Below, in pieces: positions 45,160-54,224 of a stretch of DNA of 64,000 nucleotides (position 1 is the first letter of the stretch; each line of letters opens with the position of its first letter). The position numbers were made by a program, and so were the translations under genes. Under the pieces are notes generated by a model. It saw nothing but the letters and a program-made list of their open reading frames with translations, ran no database searches and had not been told where the DNA came from. This DNA comes from Mycobacterium colombiense CECT 3035 (GTDB lineage Bacteria > Actinomycetota > Actinomycetes > Mycobacteriales > Mycobacteriaceae). The stretch is taken from the NCBI RefSeq assembly GCF_002105755.1, contig NZ_CP020821.1, positions 2,046,001 to 2,110,000 of the forward strand, written 5' to 3'.

Positions 45160-48100
45160 CTACGATTTCGCGGTTTGCTGAGAGGCGGCCAGGACCGATT
45201 CGGCGTCCATGCCGATCACTTCGAGGTACAGCTCGGCGACCTGCTCGAGCCGGTCGGGGTCGTTCTCGCCGGCGCTGAGCACGGCGGCCAGCGCGGCCAC
45301 GGTTCGGTTGGCGAAAACGTCGGCGACCATGATGCCCGGCGCGTCCAGCCAGGCCCGAATCCTCGCCACCGCCTGGGTGGCGAGCACCGAATCGCCGCCG
45401 AGGGCGAAGAAGTCGTCGTCGACTCCGACGTTGTCCCGGCCGAGCAGGTCGCCGAGGATCATTGCCAGCGCGGATTCCAACGGGCTCGACGGTGCGCGGT
45501 GGCCGGGCCGCTGTGCCTGCGAGACGGCCGCCTCCAATTCGCGTGCGACGGAACGGCGGTCGAGCTTTCCGGCATCGGTGAAACCGATTCGCTCCACCAC
45601 CGCGATGTGACGCGGGATCATGTGCGCCGGGACCAGGTCGTCAAGACACCGCCGAATCCGCTCGCCGGTCAGGGTCATGTCGTCGGTACACACCTGCGCA
45701 GCCAGCACGTCGGATTCCCCGGACCCGGCGATCAGGGCGGCCACCGCGGTCCGCACCCCGGGCACGCGCCGCAACGCGGTCTCGATCTCACCCAGCTCGA
45801 CCCGATACCCGCTGATCTTGACGCGGTGGTCGGCGCGGCCGACGAATTCGAGGGTGCCGTCCGGCCAATAGCGCACCAGATCGCCGGTGCGGTACCAGAG
45901 TCTGCCGCCATGCTCGACGAAGCGCTCCGCGGTGAGATCGGGACGTCCGCGATAGCCGCGCGCGATGCCGCGCCCGGACACCCAATATTCGCCGGGGACC
46001 CAGTCGGGGCAGTCGGCGCCGTTGTCGTCGACGACGCGGCAGGCGTTGTTGGGCAGCGGGACGCCGAAGGGCAGGGCGGTCCAGTCCTCCGGTATCGCCT
46101 CGGTGACCTCGAAAATGGTGTTGTGCACCGGGGTTTCGGTCGCACCGCCCAGTCCCGCGAAGCGCAGGTTGGGTGCCTCGGCTTGGAGGCGGCGCACCAC
46201 CTCGGGTCGAACCCAGTCGCCTCCGGTGGGGATCACCCGCACCGAGGACAGCCGCCCGCGGCCGACCTCGATCAGCATCTCCAGCCAGCCGGGCATGAAG
46301 TGGAGCACCGTGACCTTGTGCGCGTCGATCAGCCGGGCCCAGGCGTCGGGATCACGGCGCTGTGCCTCGTCGACCACCACGATGGCCCCGCCGGTGCGCA
46401 GGGTGACGAACACGTCCATCACCGAGATGTCGCCTTCCAGCGTCGACAGCGCCAGGCATCGATCCGCGGGGCCGATCTCGAAGTGGCGGCCGATGAATTC
46501 GACCGTGTTCATGGCCGCGTCGTGGGTGACCTCGACGCCTTTGGGCTCGCCGGTGGAGCCCGAGGTGAACAACACGTAGGCCAGATCGCTGGGATCGACT
46601 CGCGCTGAGGAGATTTCGGCGCCGGGACGAATGTTGCCCAGCACGTCGGCGAGGACCAGTTCGGGCACCGGCAAGGACAACGGTTGTCCGCCGCACACCA
46701 GGGCAAGGCTCACCGCACCGGTGTCGAGGATCCGCTCGGCGCGATCGCGCGGCTGGTCGACGCCGATCGGCAGGTACACGGCGCCGACGGACAGGATGCC
46801 CAGCAACGCCGGAATCTGCTCGGCGGTCTTGGGACCCATCACCGCAACGGTGTCGCCGGCCGCGATGCCGGCGGTGCGCAACGCCGCGGCCACGGCCAGC
46901 GCCTGGTCGCGCAGCTGCGCGTAGCTGAGGTCGCCGGAACTCGCGAACACCGCGGGGGCGTCCGGCTGCCGCTCGGCCTGCCGGAAGAACCCGTCGTGCA
47001 AGGCTTCCCCGCTGGGTTCGGCGGTGCGGGCGTTGGCCGCCTCGCGCACCCCGCGCTGCGCCTCCGGCAGTGCCGCGGGGCCCGGGGCGTCCCAGGAGTC
47101 TTCGGCGTAGGCCAGCTGGAGCAGCTCGTCGATGTGGTAGCCGAACATGGCGTCGATGACGCCCGGTGGGAACATGCCTTCGCGCACATCCCAATTCACC
47201 AGGACGCCGCCGTTGAACTCGGTGACCTGCGCGTCGAGCAGCACCTGCGGCCCCTGGGAGATGATCCAGCCGGGGGTGCCGAATTGGTCGGTCACGTTGC
47301 GGCCGAACAGTTCTCCAAGCCCGAGTGCGCTGGTGAAAACCACGGGCGCGAGCACCTGGGTACCGCGGTGACGGCTCAGGTCGCGCAGGACCGAGAGCCC
47401 GGGATAGGCGGAATGTGCTGCGGCCGTGCGCATCGCGGCCTGCACCACCTGCGCCCGAGCGGCCGCGGTGCGCGCGCCGACGAGATCGATGTCGAGCAGC
47501 AGCGAGGAGGTGAAGTCGCCGACCAACGAGTCGACGTCCGGGTGCAGAGGCTGGCGCCCGAACAGCGGGACGTTCAACAGAAAGCGCGAGGTGGTCGACC
47601 AACGCGCCAGGGTGTTGGCGAAACCCGCGGCCAACGCCATCGCCGGGGTGATGCCGCGCCGCTGGGCGCGGGCAAACAGCGCATCGCGGGTTTGCGGGTC
47701 CAGCCAGTGCCAGCGCCGGGTGCTGTGGTTGCAGCCCCGGGCACCGATCGACGGCAACGCCGGCGGGTCCGGCAGCTCCGGGAGGCGCTGCTCCCACCAC
47801 GCCCGGTCCGCCTCGCGCGCGGGTTGTGGCTGTGCGGCTTCGGCCTCGACGGCTTGACGGTACTGCCGGTAGGTGTAGTTCAGCTCCGGCAGATCCTGGC
47901 CGCCGTAGACGGCCGCCAGATCGGCCATCAGGGTGCGGTAGCTCATCGCATCGGCGGCCTGCATGTCCAAATCGACGTGCAGCCGCGACCGCCCGCCCGG
48001 CAGCAGCGTCACGGCCAGTTCGAACACCGCGCCGTCGAGCTGCTGGTGGGATTTGGCGTCGCGGATCGCGGCCAACCGCCGCTCGACGTCGTCGGCGCTC

Positions 48101-48663
48101 AGCGAGCGCAGATCCTCGACGCTGACCGCGAACTCGCCGCTCTCGTCGGCCGGGGTGATGCGCTGGGTGCCGTCGGGGAGGAATCGGACCCGCAGCATCG
48201 GGTGGCGACGCGCGAGCTCGGTGGCCGCCGCGCGTAGCCTCTCGGGGTCGATCGGGCCGCCGTCGAACTCCACGTAGAGGTGCCCGGCGACCCCGCCCAG
48301 CTGCTGGTTGTCCTGGCGGCCGACCCACATCGCGTGCTGCATCGGGGCGAGGGGAAACGGCTCGTACGCGCCGGACGGCTCGGCGCCGCCGGGCGCCGCG
48401 GCGGGAAGGGCTTGCCGGTCGGTGGCCTGCCCGCCGGCGGAGACCAACCGGGCCCAAGCCTCGACCGTCGGGGTTTCGGCGAGCGTCGCGAAGTCGACGT
48501 CGATGCCCTGGCGGCGCCAGCGCCCGGCCAACGTCATGATCCGGATGGAGTCCAGGCCCTGGCCGATGAGGTTGCTACCCGGCTGAACTGCATCGACGTC
48601 GACGCCGAGCAATTCGGCCACCTCCGCCCGGATGTCCTCCGAGCGTGCCGAGGCGTGCACCAC
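45160..48663 (-). CDS. mbtB: Mycobactin NRPS MbtB (ArCP-Cy-A-PCP), phenyloxazoline synthase
   Basis: Receives salicylate from MbtA on its N-terminal aryl carrier domain (GQGLDSIRI, Ser39), condenses it with Ser or Thr and cyclises to the oxazoline. Domains: ArCP about 1-75; cyclization domain with DxxxxDxxS (DLDMQAADAMS); adenylation domain (FTSGSTGEPKGVEV, GLGGATET, YRTGDL, GRADHRVKISGYR); PCP (FALGGDSVLA). The length is 1167 residues from the first of two GTG codons at 48663, with GGGAGGG upstream; the MVHA start matches Rv2383c. The C-terminal thioesterase of the M. tuberculosis protein is absent and is encoded separately. First gene of the IdeR-controlled minus-strand operon. Confidence 0.95.
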   Translation of the reverse strand: MVHASARSEDIRAEVAELLGVDVDAVQPGSNLIGQGLDSIRIMTLAGRWRRQGIDVDFATLAETPTVEAWARLVSAGGQATDRQALPAAAPGGAEPSGAYEPFPLAPMQHAMWVGRQDNQQLGGVAGHLYVEFDGGPIDPERLRAAATELARRHPMLRVRFLPDGTQRITPADESGEFAVSVEDLRSLSADDVERRLAAIRDAKSHQQLDGAVFELAVTLLPGGRSRLHVDLDMQAADAMSYRTLMADLAAVYGGQDLPELNYTYRQYRQAVEAEAAQPQPAREADRAWWEQRLPELPDPPALPSIGARGCNHSTRRWHWLDPQTRDALFARAQRRGITPAMALAAGFANTLARWSTTSRFLLNVPLFGRQPLHPDVDSLVGDFTSSLLLDIDLVGARTAAARAQVVQAAMRTAAAHSAYPGLSVLRDLSRHRGTQVLAPVVFTSALGLGELFGRNVTDQFGTPGWIISQGPQVLLDAQVTEFNGGVLVNWDVREGMFPPGVIDAMFGYHIDELLQLAYAEDSWDAPGPAALPEAQRGVREAANARTAEPSGEALHDGFFRQAERQPDAPAVFASSGDLSYAQLRDQALAVAAALRTAGIAAGDTVAVMGPKTAEQIPALLGILSVGAVYLPIGVDQPRDRAERILDTGAVSLALVCGGQPLSLPVPELVLADVLGNIRPGAEISSARVDPSDLAYVLFTSGSTGEPKGVEVTHDAAMNTVEFIGRHFEIGPADRCLALSTLEGDISVMDVFVTLRTGGAIVVVDEAQRRDPDAWARLIDAHKVTVLHFMPGWLEMLIEVGRGRLSSVRVIPTGGDWVRPEVVRRLQAEAPNLRFAGLGGATETPVHNTIFEVTEAIPEDWTALPFGVPLPNNACRVVDDNGADCPDWVPGEYWVSGRGIARGYRGRPDLTAERFVEHGGRLWYRTGDLVRYWPDGTLEFVGRADHRVKISGYRVELGEIETALRRVPGVRTAVAALIAGSGESDVLAAQVCTDDMTLTGERIRRCLDDLVPAHMIPRHIAVVERIGFTDAGKLDRRSVARELEAAVSQAQRPGHRAPSSPLESALAMILGDLLGRDNVGVDDDFFALGGDSVLATQAVARIRAWLDAPGIMVADVFANRTVAALAAVLSAGENDPDRLEQVAELYLEVIGMDAESVLAASQQTAKS

Positions 48664-48677
48664 AGACCCTCCCTGAA

Positions 48678-48696
48678 TTAGCACAGGCTGCCCTAA
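48678..48696. promoter_or_regulatory. IdeR iron box 1 (mbtB side)
   Basis: TTAGCACAGGCTGCCCTAA matches 14 of 19 positions of the IdeR consensus TTAGGTTAGGCTAACCTAA, including both TTAG/CTAA ends and the AGGCT core. It lies 15 bases before the mbtB GTG. Iron-loaded IdeR should block both divergent promoters. Confidence 0.85.
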
Positions 48697-48699
48697 TTT

Positions 48700-48718
48700 T
48701 TTGGTTACCCTATCCTTA
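48700..48718. promoter_or_regulatory. IdeR iron box 2 (mbtA side)
   Basis: On the minus strand TAAGGATAGGGTAACCAAA matches 15 of 19 consensus positions. Its centre is 22 bases from box 1, about two helical turns, so two IdeR dimer pairs could sit side by side. It also overlaps TATCCT/TACCCT, possible -10 hexamers for mbtA. Confidence 0.8.
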
Positions 48719-48768
48719 CTCCCTGCGTCCCCGCTACTAGCCCCGTTCGAAGCCCCGCTGAAGGAGCC

Positions 48769-50415
48769 ATGAGCCCGAACACATCGCAGCCGCCGGCCGA
48801 CGTTCTCGACGGGTTCGTGCCGTTCCCCGCTGATCGGGCCGCCGCCTACCGGGCGGCCGGCTACTGGGCGGGACGGCCCCTGGACGCGATCCTGACCGAC
48901 GCGGCCCAGCAATGGCCCGACCGAACTGCCGTCGTCGACGCGATGGGCGACACTGGCCTCAGTTACGCGGACCTCGACGACCAGGCTAACCGCGCGGCCA
49001 GCGGACTGCGGGGCGCGGGTATCGCGCCGGGCGACCGGGTGTTGGTGCAGTTGCCGAATGGCTGCCAGTTCGCGGTGGCGTTGTTCGGGCTGTTGCGCGC
49101 GGGGGCGATCCCGGTGATGTGCCTGCCCGGTCACCGGGCCGCCGAGATGGGGCATTTCGCCGCGGTGAGCGGGGCCACCGCGCTGCTGATCGCCGATACC
49201 GCAGGCGGATTCGACTACCGGACGATGGCGCGGGGGCTCGTCGAGCGATGCACCGCGCTCGAGCACGTCATCGTCGACGGCGACCCGGGACCGTTCACCT
49301 CGTGGGCGCAACTGCGCGATCGGGCGGTCACCGGCGCGCCGCTGTCGGCACCCGACCCGGGATCGCCTGCGCTGCTGCTGGTTTCGGGCGGTACCACGGG
49401 CATGCCGAAGCTCATCCCGCGCACCCACGACGATTACGTCTTCAACGCGAGGGCCAGCGCCGAACTGTGCGGGCTGACCGGTGAGGACGTGTATTTGGCG
49501 GTGCTGTCGGCGGGCCACAACTTCCCGCTCGCCTGCCCGGGTCTGCTCGGCGCGATGACCGCCGGCGCCACCACCGTTTTCGGCACCGATCCCAGCCCCG
49601 AGGCGGCCTTTGCCGCCGTCGCGCGCCACGGTGTCACGGTGACCGCCCTGGTGCCGGCGCTGGCCAAGTTGTGGGCCCAAGCGTGCGACTGGGAACCCGT
49701 GACACCGAAGACGCTGCGGCTCTTACAGATTGGTGGCGCCAGGCTGGAACCCGAAGACGCCCGTTTGGTGCGTGCCGCCTTGACCCCCGGTCTTCAGCAG
49801 GTGTTCGGGATGGCCGAGGGGCTGCTGAACTACACCCGGCTCGATGATCCCGCGGAACTCACCGAGCACACCCAGGGGCGACCGTTGTGTCCAGCCGACG
49901 AACTGCGCGTCGTCGATGCGGAGGGCAAGCCGGTGCCTCAGGGCGAAGAAGGCGAACTTCTGGTTCGCGGGCCGTACACGTTCAACGGCTACTTTCGTGC
50001 CGATCGCGACAACGAACGCAGCTTCGACCCCGACGGCTTCTTCCGCAGCGGCGACGTGGTAAGGCTGCGCAACGACGGCTATCTGGTGGTCACCGGTCGG
50101 GTCAAAGACGTGATTTGCCGTGGCGGGGAGACGATTTCGGCGGCGGATCTGGAAGAGCAGTTGCACGGCCACCCGGCGATCTTCTCGGCCGCCGCGGTCG
50201 CGCTGCCCGACCGCTACCTGGGCGAGAAGATCTGTGCGGCGGTCGTTTTCAACGGTCCCGAACTGACGCTCGCGGAGGTCAACGGCTATCTGGACCAGCG
50301 TGGCGTGGCTGCGCATGCCCGCCCCGACGTCCTGGTGGCGATGACGTCACTGCCCACCACCCCGATCGGCAAGATCGATAAAAAGGCGATCGCCGGCCAG
50401 GTTTCCGCGCGATAA
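48769..50415 (+). CDS. mbtA: Salicyl-AMP ligase MbtA
   Basis: Activates salicylate and loads it on the MbtB aryl carrier domain. The 548-residue protein is an intact stand-alone adenylation enzyme: A3 loop LLLVSGGTTGMPKLIPRTH at about 202-220, GMAEGLLNYTR as the A5 region, RSGDVVRL, and the C-terminal catalytic Lys535 in PIGKIDKKAI. It is transcribed away from mbtB from the shared IdeR-controlled region; AAGGAG stands just before ATG 48769. The protein is slightly shorter than Rv2384 at both ends. In M. tuberculosis mbtJ and mbtI follow; here a TetR gene converges instead. Confidence 0.96.
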   Translation: MSPNTSQPPADVLDGFVPFPADRAAAYRAAGYWAGRPLDAILTDAAQQWPDRTAVVDAMGDTGLSYADLDDQANRAASGLRGAGIAPGDRVLVQLPNGCQFAVALFGLLRAGAIPVMCLPGHRAAEMGHFAAVSGATALLIADTAGGFDYRTMARGLVERCTALEHVIVDGDPGPFTSWAQLRDRAVTGAPLSAPDPGSPALLLVSGGTTGMPKLIPRTHDDYVFNARASAELCGLTGEDVYLAVLSAGHNFPLACPGLLGAMTAGATTVFGTDPSPEAAFAAVARHGVTVTALVPALAKLWAQACDWEPVTPKTLRLLQIGGARLEPEDARLVRAALTPGLQQVFGMAEGLLNYTRLDDPAELTEHTQGRPLCPADELRVVDAEGKPVPQGEEGELLVRGPYTFNGYFRADRDNERSFDPDGFFRSGDVVRLRNDGYLVVTGRVKDVICRGGETISAADLEEQLHGHPAIFSAAAVALPDRYLGEKICAAVVFNGPELTLAEVNGYLDQRGVAAHARPDVLVAMTSLPTTPIGKIDKKAIAGQVSAR

Positions 50416-52260: not shown

Positions 52261-53322
52261 TCAGCCCATCGCCGCGTACAGGTCCGTAAGCAGGCCGGCC
52301 GTGGTCGGGAAGTCCATGCACTGATCGGTCACGGATTGGCCATAGGTCAGCTCGCCGCCGAGCGACTGCGCGCCTGCCACCAGGAAGCTCTCCAGCATCA
52401 GACCGGCGATACCGCGCTCGCCGGCGCCCAAGCGCGCGGCCACCTCGGCGGTGACTTCGGCCTGCCGCACATGGTCTTTGGCGGAGTTGGCGTGCGAGCA
52501 GTCGAGCATGACCTGCGCGGAAAGCCCGGCCTTCCCCAGCCGGTCAATGGCGCCGGCCACCGACGCCGCATCGTAGTTAGGCCCCGCAGTGCCGCCCCGA
52601 AGGATCACATGGCAGTCGGGATTGCCCATGGTCTGCACGACGGCCGCGCGACCGACGTTGTCGGTGCCGAAGAAATGGTGCGGTGCCGCAGCGGCTTTGA
52701 CGCCGTCGATGGCGACCTGGATGTTGCCGTCGGTGCCGTTCTTGAATCCGACTGGCATCGACAGCCCGGACGCCAACTGACGGTGCACCTGCGACTCGGT
52801 GGTCCGGGCACCGATGGCGCCCCAGGCGACGGCGTCGGCGATGTATTGCGGACTGGTGGGCTCCAGGAATTCGCATCCGACCGGCAGGCCCACGTCGATG
52901 ATGTCAAGCAGCAAACCGCGCGCGATCCGGATGCCACGTTCGACGTCGAAGCTGCCGTCCATGTTGGGATCGTTGATCAAGCCCTTCCAGCCGATGGTGG
53001 TACGCGGCTTCTCGAAGTAGACCCGCATCACGATCTTCAGCCGATCGGCGTACTCGGCCGCGAGCGGCGCAAGCCGGCGCGCGTAGTCGAGCGCGGCGAC
53101 GGGATCATGCACCGAGCACGGACCGACCACCAGTAACAGCCGGTCGTCACCACCGGCCAGGATCGCCGAGATCTCCTCGCGATCGCGCTGCACGGCCTGG
53201 GCACGCCGGGCCGTCAGCGGCAGCTCGGTGCGGATCACGGCCGGCGCCGAGAGCTCCCGGAACGAAACGATCCGATGATCGGACGTATCGATGGTCGCCG
53301 TCTCACAATTGGTGATGGACAT
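52261..53322 (-). CDS. Type I DAHP synthase (AroF/G/H family)
   Basis: First enzyme of the shikimate pathway, joining PEP and erythrose-4-phosphate. The 353-residue protein is of the E. coli AroFGH class: VVGPCSVHDP, MRVYFEKPRTTIGWKG, INDPNMDGSF, GARTTESQVHRQLASG, VGFKNGTDG, LRGGTAGPNYD and MLDCSHANSAKD are all present, so metal (Cys, His) and PEP ligands are intact. M. tuberculosis relies on a type II enzyme (Rv2178c), so this is an additional or alternative enzyme. Its product leads to chorismate, the precursor of aromatic amino acids and of mycobactin salicylate. An attenuator-like leader precedes it. The ATG at 53322 has only a distant AAAGG upstream. Confidence 0.93.
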   Translation of the reverse strand: MSITNCETATIDTSDHRIVSFRELSAPAVIRTELPLTARRAQAVQRDREEISAILAGGDDRLLLVVGPCSVHDPVAALDYARRLAPLAAEYADRLKIVMRVYFEKPRTTIGWKGLINDPNMDGSFDVERGIRIARGLLLDIIDVGLPVGCEFLEPTSPQYIADAVAWGAIGARTTESQVHRQLASGLSMPVGFKNGTDGNIQVAIDGVKAAAAPHHFFGTDNVGRAAVVQTMGNPDCHVILRGGTAGPNYDAASVAGAIDRLGKAGLSAQVMLDCSHANSAKDHVRQAEVTAEVAARLGAGERGIAGLMLESFLVAGAQSLGGELTYGQSVTDQCMDFPTTAGLLTDLYAAMG

Positions 53323-53383
53323 GGAGGGTGTGTGCCTTTCTCTGCTGGCTCCCAGGGCACGCCCGCTGGTTCCCGATGCCCTG

Positions 53384-53416
53384 AAAAACGAAAAGCAGCG
53401 ACCTTGCGGTCACTGC
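53384..53416 (-). terminator. Attenuator terminator upstream of DAHP synthase
   Basis: On the minus strand GCAGTGACC, a GCAA tetraloop, then GGTCGCTGC (nine pairs including one G-U), directly followed by TTTTCGTTTTT. This is a standard intrinsic terminator placed 62 bases before the DAHP synthase start and 31 bases after the leader peptide stop. Just upstream, GGCTCCGGG (53483-53475) can pair with GGAGCC (53473-53468) or with CCCGGAGCC (53427-53419), and GCAGCG (53461-53456) can pair with the terminator 3' arm, so alternative folds exist. Confidence 0.85.
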
Positions 53417-53446
53417 CGGGCTCCGGGTATCAGTCGTGCGGTTGCG

Positions 53447-53521
53447 TCAACCAGACGCTGCATCGCTGGCTCCACCCGGAGCCACGATAAAGCGCCAATA
53501 CGCGCGCACGCCGATATTCAC
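53447..53521 (-). CDS. Leader peptide with Tyr-Trp-Arg-Phe (aromatic attenuator)
   Basis: A 24-residue mini-ORF from GTG 53521: residues 5-13 are VRAYWRFIV, with Tyr8, Trp9 and Phe11 as the only aromatic residues, followed by an Ala/Gly/Ser-rich tail. Its stop precedes the terminator. There is no ribosome site, but a TATCTT -10 hexamer lies seven bases before the GTG, so transcription would begin at or next to the G and translation would be leaderless, a common mode in mycobacteria. An in-frame GTG at 53509 is the alternative start (20 residues). Ribosome stalling at the Tyr/Trp/Phe codons when charged tRNAs are scarce would alter folding of the downstream stems. Confidence 0.75.
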   Translation of the reverse strand: MNIGVRAYWRFIVAPGGASDAASG

Positions 53522-53528
53522 GCCCGCA

Positions 53529-53534
53529 AAGATA
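53529..53534 (-). promoter_or_regulatory. -10 hexamer for the leader/DAHP synthase transcript
   Basis: TATCTT (TAnnnT pattern) on the minus strand, with TGCGGGC between it and the GTG of the leader peptide. That spacing puts the transcription start at about 53521-53522. No convincing -35 box was seen. Confidence 0.55.
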
Positions 53535-53606
53535 CCACGCGGCGCTGGCACGCCTGACAGCTGCCCGTTTTCGGCCCTCAGTCATCGCCGCGCACGTGGC
53601 GACGGA

Positions 53607-54224
53607 CTAGCCAACTCCGTTGGCGCGCAACGCTTCGAGCAGTCTGTCCATCACCGCGCCGGCGTCCGCACGCGCCTGGCGTTGATCGTCGGCGCGGGCG
53701 ATGTAGAGCGTCGCCTCGCGCAGTGCGCCCATGATCGTCAGCGCTGTCGCCTCGACGGGCTGGCGGGGGATGCTGCCGGACTCGATGGCGTCGGCGAGCA
53801 GCCCGGTGACGAATCCGATGTTGTAGCGGTGCCCGATGTCGCTCCAGCGTTCCCATCCCAGCACCGCCAGGGCCTCGAGCAACACGATGCGCTGGATCTC
53901 GGGTTCGGCGCATGCGTCCAGCCACAGCCCCGAACACAATCGCATGATCTCGACCGGATCCGAGTGCCCCGCGGCGGCGACGGCCTCCCCCATCCGGGCT
54001 GCCATCTCCCCCTCCACCTGCTCGAAGACCGCCGCGAACAGCTCCGTCTTGTCGGCGAAGTGGTGGTACAGGGCTCCGCGCGTTACCCCCGCGTCGCGGA
54101 CGATGGTTTCCAGGGACGCGTCGGCGAATCCCACCGACGCGAACAACGGCCGGGCGGCACCGATCAGCGCATCCCGCGTCTCCGCCGCGCGTTCCGCTTG
54201 CGTGCGGCGACCGCCCTTCGCCAT
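53607..54224 (-). CDS. TetR-family transcriptional regulator
   Basis: A 205-residue TetR protein with a clear helix-turn-helix (SLETIVRDAGVTRGALYHHFADKTELF, residues about 33-59) after a basic N-terminal arm. The C-terminal ligand domain contains SGLWLDACAEPEIQRIVLLEA. ATG at 54224 follows GGTAAGGG. ATACATAC-type sequences stand before this gene and twice before the next gene upstream (54316-55062), so it probably represses both. Its transcript would run toward the DAHP synthase leader. The ligand is unknown. Confidence 0.88.
   Translation of the reverse strand: MAKGGRRTQAERAAETRDALIGAARPLFASVGFADASLETIVRDAGVTRGALYHHFADKTELFAAVFEQVEGEMAARMGEAVAAAGHSDPVEIMRLCSGLWLDACAEPEIQRIVLLEALAVLGWERWSDIGHRYNIGFVTGLLADAIESGSIPRQPVEATALTIMGALREATLYIARADDQRQARADAGAVMDRLLEALRANGVG

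Follow-up and report, generated by a model that had tools for sequence, protein, structure and literature searches.

The leader locus upstream of a type I DAHP synthase gene

The window analysed here, a 64,000-nucleotide stretch of the Mycobacterium colombiense CECT 3035 genome, carries on its minus strand a gene (52261..53322) encoding a type I DAHP synthase of 353 amino acids, an assignment made in an earlier sequence-only reading and confirmed by matches to TIGR00034 (505.9 bits; cut-off 173.2) and PF00793. The ATG of this putatively regulated gene, at 53322, lies 199 nt past the GTG of a short leader ORF. A single type I match was found in the host genome, which also encodes a type II DAHP synthase at another site; among the genome contigs searched, the closest relative of the 353-residue enzyme, at locus L002, shares 97% identity with it. 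Upstream, a gene for a TetR-family regulator (53607-54224, minus strand) lies in the same orientation, with about 85 nt separating its end from the leader GTG. In the vicinity of the DAHP synthase gene, the region 45160-50415 of the window contains an NRPS-like gene, recognised by eye from its translation, and a gene resembling 2,3-dihydroxybenzoate-AMP ligase (TIGR02275, 577.7 bits, below its cut-off); these genes perhaps constitute a chorismate-derived siderophore cluster.

All features of the leader lie on the minus strand. The -10 hexamer TATCTT (53529..53534) precedes the GTG (53521-53519) by exactly 7 nt, and the 24-codon frame that begins there (VNIGVRAYWRFIVAPGGASDAASG, followed by a stop; 53447..53521) has Tyr8, Trp9 and Phe11 as its sole aromatic residues, both as first described from the sequence. 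The sensor codons TAT TGG CGC TTT (Tyr8, Trp9, Arg10 and Phe11; 53489..53500) show little or no variation across 38 Mycobacterium leaders. A scan of 371 bases found no sigma-70-type promoter with both hexamers. The same scan revealed five terminator-like sites, compared with a mean of 0.3 in shuffled sequences, the longest being hairpin T (53394..53417), with 10 pairs and the loop GCAA. No second copy of the element was found in the host genome, in which the sensor motif TAYTGGCGCTWY is present once.

Between the sensor codons and the gene lies a series of segments, several of which have two possible partners. Segment 1 (GGCUCCGGGU; 53474..53483) can pair with segment 2 (GGAGCC; 53468..53473) or with segment 3 (ACCCGGAGCCC; 53418..53428), so that the mutually exclusive pairing seen earlier, of GGCTCCGGGT (53483-53474) with GGAGCC (53473-53468) or with ACCCGGAGCC (53428-53419; 10 bp), was borne out. 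Segment 3 can alternatively pair with segment 6 (GGGCAUCGGG; 53372..53381), segment 6 with segment 7 (53350..53364), and segment 7 with segment 8, the Shine-Dalgarno region of the DAHP synthase gene (AGAAAGGCAC; 53332..53341). Between segments 3 and 6 lies the predicted intrinsic terminator (53417-53384), comprising the hairpin GGCAGTGACC-GCAA-GGTCGCTGCT and the T-rich TTTCGTTTTT, with the U-rich tail UUUUCGUUUUU placed by the terminator scan at 53384..53394. The hairpin and tail thus stood as first read but the GNRA loop is not a family-wide feature, since the loop varies (ACCA, ATCA, ACAA and others) and GCAA is particular to this genome. The element also extends past the terminator up to the start codon at 53322, which corrects the extent given earlier.

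The leader folds at -98.2 kcal/mol, compared with a mean of -78.9 kcal/mol for 200 shuffled sequences (z -4.0, none as good). In its minimum-energy fold, an outer stem P0 (53505..53516 with 53428..53440) accompanies a long hairpin P1, which contains the 1:2 pairing and has a lower stem (53484..53496 with 53454..53466) that includes the Phe codon; segment 3 pairs with segment 6, enclosing the terminator hairpin, and segment 7 lies on GGCAC within the Shine-Dalgarno region. The folds listed for other leaders showed either this OFF-type state or an alternative, ON, with 1:3 and often 6:7.

Conservation of the leader ORF, promoter spacing and sensor codons

Of 198 genomes in a sample of the genus, 73 had a type I DAHP synthase gene, and 72 of these were read upstream (G173, with the gene near a contig end, was left out). 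The core GGCGCTTTA...GGCTCCGGG and segment 3 were retained in all 72 loci. For the alignment, 67 leaders were reduced to 39 by removing L094, L096, L098 and near-duplicates, and then to 38 by removing L202; these 38 non-redundant leaders show no variation in the Trp codon, in the stretch CGC TTT A, or in nine bases each of segments 1 and 3. Comparison of orthologous leaders, which the sequence-only reading had proposed as a check, showed that the aromatic residues are conserved: in the 71 Mycobacterium leaders parsed, Trp and Phe were present in all, Tyr in 69, and all three together in 69. This set includes two leaders from a separate search for relatives (L005 and L006) and excludes L016, which has no stop within reach; three others (L175, L182 and L196), missed by the script and recognised by eye and by the core motif, are outside the codon counts. 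The choice of sensor codons was also skewed, with TAT 66 times against TAC 4 and TTT 71 times against TTC 3, whereas seven gene stretches of the window contain TAT 7 and TAC 45 times, and TTT 7 and TTC 71 times. The leaders therefore mostly write Tyr and Phe with codons that are rare in the host genome.

A few natural variants were seen in the genus. Tyr is replaced by His in L091 and by Met in L202, and Trp by Arg in L196 (read by eye, outside the 71), with the RNA kept in all three and with matching changes in the terminator stem of L196. In L096 (2534-2718, minus strand), a natural deletion places segment 1 almost directly next to segment 3, removing segment 2 and the usual stop codon but retaining the sensor codons and the terminator.

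Beyond the genus, we compared 198 DAHP synthase upstream regions, a set from which L116 and L117 were dropped, as was L002, seemingly the same contig as L082, and in which L162 and L163 lack a recognised DAHP synthase motif; L163 nevertheless holds a leader ORF. An aromatic short ORF, defined by three aromatics in five codons, occurred on the gene strand in 153 of the 198 regions and on the opposite strand in 26. This bias, together with the retention of the core and segment 3 in every Mycobacterium locus read and the stability of the fold (z -4.0), makes it extremely improbable that the locus is just a constant terminator or intergenic hairpin beside a chance ORF, with no regulation. A TAnnnT box was present 5-9 nt before the start of the aromatic ORF in 123 of the 198 regions, at exactly 7 nt in 101, whereas 194 of the 4712 possible starts in the same regions have such a box at 6-8 nt, the rate for the leaders being somewhat favoured because each ORF start was picked from a small number of in-frame candidates. 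The gap between box and start is 6-8 nt in 121 of the 123 leaders with a box, which leaves no room for a Shine-Dalgarno site. Sorted by record title or kinship, 148 loci were actinobacterial; 123 of these were parsed by the script and three more by eye, and 22 had no recognised leader, 15 of them in family f18 and one partly masked. The proposal of leaderless-type promoter spacing and an aromatic leader ORF ahead of a type I DAHP synthase gene is thus supported by the sequences.

Nucleotide conservation in the leaders is very high, including at third codon positions, and resembles that of a structured RNA; the conserved RNA could instead sense something else, such as a metabolite, a tRNA or a protein, with the putative short ORF being incidental or serving to keep the RNA open. 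We consider this quite improbable. The aromatic residues persist in other actinobacteria while their order and codons change between clades (YFWF, YPYF, WYAYF, SYRWF and WYWRF, compared with YWRF here), which makes a constraint on the RNA alone unlikely, although most of the non-Mycobacterium leaders were picked for their aromatic clusters. For the same reason, the presence of at least two aromatics in all 51 non-Mycobacterium actinobacterial leaders is not an independent figure. In addition, neither the window nor any of 20 related loci gave an Rfam match at the gathering cut-off; the region 53300-53620 gave two weak matches far below it. The reading of the ORF as an aromatic sensor is well supported at the level of sequence.

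Alternative helices, the terminator and ribosome position

In the 38 Mycobacterium leaders, the pairs of the OFF structure formed in 97.4% of cells (29-47% in slid controls) and those of the ON structure in 97.0% (38-54% when slid). Three OFF pairs were changed on both sides, a number reached by 9 of 500 shuffles, but the ON helices showed no covariation beyond shuffles, 1:3 being invariant in the 38 sequences. In 13 leaders of the Streptomyces/Micromonospora type, five pairs of the ON structure were changed on both sides (0 of 500 shuffles), with 6:7 as drawn pairing in only 60% of cells. In 12 leaders of the Nocardia/Rhodococcus type, 92.1% of cells paired in the ON structure, and no two-sided changes were found in it.

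We also compared the pairing energy of segments within their own leader with that obtained after swapping leaders, using 56 leaders in eight hand-made clades and shuffling within clades. Segments 1 and 3 paired better with their own partner (-30.99 kcal/mol, compared with -29.39 kcal/mol when swapped; z -5.2), as did 3:6 (z -3.1), 6:7 (z -2.6), 7:8 (z -4.0) and the arms of the terminator (z -8.6), whereas seven other pairings were not significantly better within the leader (p 0.129 or more). An earlier swap test with partly overlapping windows, from which L016 was also left out, gave the same picture, and its weak signal for 6:8 (p 0.01) disappeared without the overlap. These results support a relay of helices, 1:3, 3:6, 6:7 and 7:8. 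The co-adaptation of 7:8 shows that the alternative helices reach the downstream Shine-Dalgarno region, as in translational attenuators.

The terminator hairpin itself was kept in the 38 aligned Mycobacterium leaders and in 45 mixed leaders, the latter having been picked for such a hairpin. Its conservation, with a T-rich tail, would be expected under classical transcription attenuation, in which a stalled ribosome would free a segment that disrupts the terminator, read-through would set the level of DAHP synthase, and the antiterminator would be one not yet recognised; terminator attenuation has been described, in the text available, for M. tuberculosis ilvB1 (PMC13236596). However, the hairpin had a mean probability of 0.97-0.99 at every modelled ribosome position, and the upstream segments showed zero pairing with either of its arms in the same folding. 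Nor did the swap tests reveal a competitor: the segment 2 region gave z -0.8 and 0.1 with the two arms (p 0.23 or more, within clades), and the segment 1 region gave z -1.5 with the 3' arm (p 0.07) and z 1.0 with the 5' arm (p 0.85) in the earlier test. A segment 2 antiterminator acting on either arm, suggested by eye from the Mycobacterium leaders, was rejected on the basis of the folding and the swap test. Leaders of the Nocardia/Rhodococcus type, moreover, had no terminator hairpin on reading the alignment, yet kept segments 1, 3, 6 and 7. Neither folding nor swap tests thus found an antiterminator exclusive with the terminator, the mark of trp/phe/his-type attenuators, and the transcription antitermination to which the sequence-only reading had pointed was not supported. 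We regard classical transcription attenuation as unlikely here, and think it more probable that the hairpin acts as a partial terminator at a constant level, or as a pause site where the ribosome may gain time to decide. In these models, the hairpin between segments 3 and 6 is not a competitor in the relay.

The effect of a ribosome on the relay was modelled by keeping all bases of its footprint (A site -15 to +12) out of any helix and recomputing the pairing, in equilibrium models without transcription kinetics, for 37 Mycobacterium leaders (L179 was dropped). Placing the A site at the first aromatic codon lowered the probability of 1:2 from 0.74 to 0.09, raised that of 1:3 from 0.23 to 0.83, and lowered that of 3:6 from 0.54 to 0.07; a ribosome past the Phe codon covered segment 1, and 3:6 returned to 0.64-0.71. 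A ribosome at codon 2 gave an intermediate state in Mycobacterium, with P(1:3) 0.40. Mean accessibility of the Shine-Dalgarno site, tried as proof of the switch, failed as such in 38 Mycobacterium leaders (0.53-0.57 with the ribosome near the aromatic codons, compared with 0.54 for the free RNA), and the helix-by-helix pair counts are a second look at the same question after that measure had stayed flat. By these counts, the ribosome on the first aromatic codon reduced the expected 7:8 pairs from 5.96 to 2.22 in the 37 Mycobacterium leaders; in the window leader, 3:6 went from 7.9 to 0.6 expected pairs, 6:7 from 0.9 to 11.2 and 7:8 from 6.3 to 1.8. The total pairing of the ribosome-binding region fell only from 10.4 to 9.1 pairs in Mycobacterium, and from 8.9 to 6.9 in the window leader, because other partners replace segment 7.

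The other clades behaved differently from one another in these models. In 12 Nocardia/Rhodococcus-type leaders, Shine-Dalgarno accessibility rose from 0.42 in the free RNA to 0.63 when the ribosome was placed at the first aromatic codon, and was 0.37 when it was placed at the stop codon. A stall had a weak effect on accessibility in 13 Streptomyces/Micromonospora-type leaders; the free RNA of these leaders already leans towards ON (P(1:3) 0.62, P(3:6) 0.32), so that a stall adds less. A ribosome on the stop codon was predicted to leave the leader ON, with P(1:3) 0.67 in Mycobacterium and 0.80 in the 13 Streptomyces/Micromonospora-type leaders, and the OFF state would therefore need quick release of the ribosome.

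The contribution of the individual aromatic codons depended on the footprint. With its edge at +9, Phe switched the fold and Tyr8 of the window leader hardly did so, whereas the reverse was seen with the edge at +13, the main setting (12 leaders). With the two shortest footprints, Tyr8 of the window leader hardly switched (P(1:3) 0.29-0.30), and Phe11 switched only with a short footprint. Of the earlier claim that Tyr, Trp and Phe are sensed together, the part concerning Tyr and Trp agrees with the models at the main setting, in which a ribosome on Tyr/Trp flips the fold, but that concerning Phe depends on the footprint assumed.

Taken as a mechanism, these data may be explained as follows. 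Transcription probably starts at or beside the GTG, and translation of the 24-codon leader would therefore not use a Shine-Dalgarno site. Under an ample supply of aromatic amino acids, the ribosome would pass through and leave, and the leader would close into a long rod (P0 and P1, with 1:2); segment 3, thus freed, would join segment 6, enclosing the terminator hairpin, while segment 7 would mask part of the DAHP synthase Shine-Dalgarno region (OFF). When charged tRNA for Tyr or Trp, and perhaps Phe, is short, the ribosome would wait at codons 8-11, holding the base of P1 open, and segment 3 would displace segment 2 via the GGGU loop to form 1:3; segment 6 would then be released to pair with segment 7, which would quit the Shine-Dalgarno region (ON). 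We consider it moderately probable that the element is such a ribosome-mediated, aromatic-sensing attenuator, working by a translation-level relay and containing a terminator to which the model assigns no role. Our confidence is no higher because the total pairing falls little, accessibility is flat in Mycobacterium, and the free RNA of the Streptomyces/Micromonospora type leans ON.

Distribution, known relatives and possible significance

A covariance model, R1, combining the ORF, 1:3 and the terminator, was built from 45 leaders and scanned against 296 genomes of the class. It matched 46 of them, once each, in seven families; six of 296 genomes in a sample of the phylum also matched, all six being already in the class search. 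Thirty-six of the 46 matches lie 58-174 nt ahead of the type I DAHP synthase gene of the same genome, a position partly expected because some of those leaders built the model. The other ten, all in family f18 (L234-L243), have the same leader and terminator and precede a gene with a chorismate mutase domain; in nine of the ten, the target also matched DAHP_synth_1 (one of the nine below the Pfam cut-off), and in one it was a chorismate mutase alone. These ten genomes are absent from the list of 58 type I DAHP synthase matches. All 46 matches thus precede genes of the aromatic pathway, a further point against an RNA sensing something else. Another 22 genomes of the class have a type I gene but no model match, among them L152, L153, L155 and L163, with a YFWF-type leader that R1 does not describe.

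Aromatic leader ORFs also precede type I DAHP synthase genes in Bradyrhizobium, Mesorhizobium, Devosia, Xanthomonas, Burkholderia-type and other bacteria (for example, L015, L042, L045 and L067 among the proteobacterial leaders). Several proteobacterial loci have a TAT-like box shortly upstream of an ATG, and only 6 of 50 non-actinobacterial loci passed the TAnnnT test. In the proteobacterial leaders, a stretch that follows the aromatic codons (in many cases CCGCTGGCGG) can base-pair with the 5' arm of a strong terminator. In a set of 30 loci, of which one yielded no leader and another (L034) was read in a frame other than that of the likely leader, the segment 1 region paired better with the 5' arm of its own leader (-13.65 kcal/mol, compared with -12.80 kcal/mol when swapped; z -4.5, p 0.0002; 29 of 30 loci, not clade-controlled), and the 3' arm also gave a signal (z -2.3, p 0.01, likewise not clade-controlled). 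No Rfam match was found in nine proteobacterial leader loci scanned. The proteobacterial leaders are thus likely, as modelled, to use a classical antiterminator, which lends some weight to transcription attenuation of the same gene in actinobacteria. By these models, however, the two groups appear similar in layout and different in read-out.

The translation-level relay that we favour for the actinobacterial leaders would resemble the erm/cat type of translational attenuator, in which a ribosome stalled on a leader peptide exposes a downstream Shine-Dalgarno site through a cascade of helices. Those systems sense antibiotics, whereas the M. colombiense element would sense amino-acid supply and carries a terminator.

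The sequence-only reading presented the element as the aromatic counterpart of mycobacterial cysteine attenuators; the aromatic leader ORF is present, but this view overlooks aroR of Corynebacterium glutamicum, a leader already known to have aromatic codons and to precede a DAHP synthase gene. In the text available of the sources, aroR, with Phe-Tyr-Phe, precedes aroF (PMC4046766, PMC11802643, PMC7356990), is described as stalling-dependent (Neshat 2014, cited in PMC11802643 and PMC7356990), and is termed a translational regulatory leader peptide (PMC7356990); according to the accessible part of a review, it responds to Phe limitation, and Tyr does not matter. Like the M. colombiense element, as far as these descriptions go, it consists of a short leader ORF with aromatic codons located ahead of a DAHP synthase gene; judged by description and not by alignment, it differs in having Phe-Tyr-Phe where we found Tyr-Trp-Arg-Phe and an intrinsic terminator in the middle of the relay.

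Within the mycobacteria, leaderless short ORFs responsive to cysteine have been reported in M. smegmatis (Canestrari 2020, cited in PMC9031893 and PMC9094748), with control of the cysteine genes at the level of translation (PMC9031893, PMC13236596). In the passages available, they share with the proposed reading of the present element a leaderless short ORF as amino-acid sensor, but have contiguous cysteine codons and precede cysteine genes, and no aromatic sensor is described there. The ilvB1 attenuator of M. tuberculosis (2026, PMC13236596), in a source seen in part, similarly has, in the same genus, sensor codons within a leader ORF and an intrinsic terminator, both ahead of a biosynthetic gene; it uses branched-chain codons and has mutually exclusive terminator and antiterminator structures, whereas no antiterminator was found in the M. 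colombiense leader. The main text of PMC13236596 does not contain aroG, DAHP, aromatic or trpE. PMC4974804 names some M. abscessus uORFs, and aroF, DAHP and heptulosonate are absent from its main text as available.

A 2005 survey of actinobacterial leaders, as far as its available text goes, reported elements for Trp, Cys, Leu and ileS and found conserved structures in none of the other pathways (PMC1262725), and work on Streptomyces lividans, in the passages available, described leaders for Leu, Trp, Ala, Ile, Met and Thr, none of the eight leaders named preceding a DAHP synthase gene (PMC8079986). The trp and trpS leaders of Streptomyces and Corynebacterium in these two sources are likewise actinobacterial leader peptides with terminators, leaderless in S. 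lividans, but have Trp codons only and precede other genes. In the open-licence literature as available to us, we found no account of a leader preceding a DAHP synthase gene in mycobacteria or Streptomyces, which is weak evidence of absence. What looks new, with aroR of C. glutamicum as the known precedent in the texts available, is relay-type control of DAHP synthase by way of a leaderless ORF with three aromatic residues, across actinomycetes.

We tentatively suggest that a pan-aromatic leaderless attenuator may be an old control of entry into the shikimate pathway and of its branch point. In actinomycetes it would work through a helix relay from the leader ORF to the Shine-Dalgarno region, with a terminator in the loop; in one family it would stand before chorismate mutase, mostly in a DAHP-synthase-like fusion; and in proteobacteria a similar layout of promoter and aromatic ORF would be read out by ordinary antitermination. 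DAHP synthase sets the flow of carbon into all aromatic compounds, which in actinomycetes include many antibiotics and salicylate siderophores. For annotation, the element adds a new family, and it is a natural example of one leader apparently combining a terminator with control of translation. If the proposed reading is true, a sensor of Tyr, Trp and Phe, read by the ribosome at the entry to the shikimate pathway, would be a simple and testable control point.
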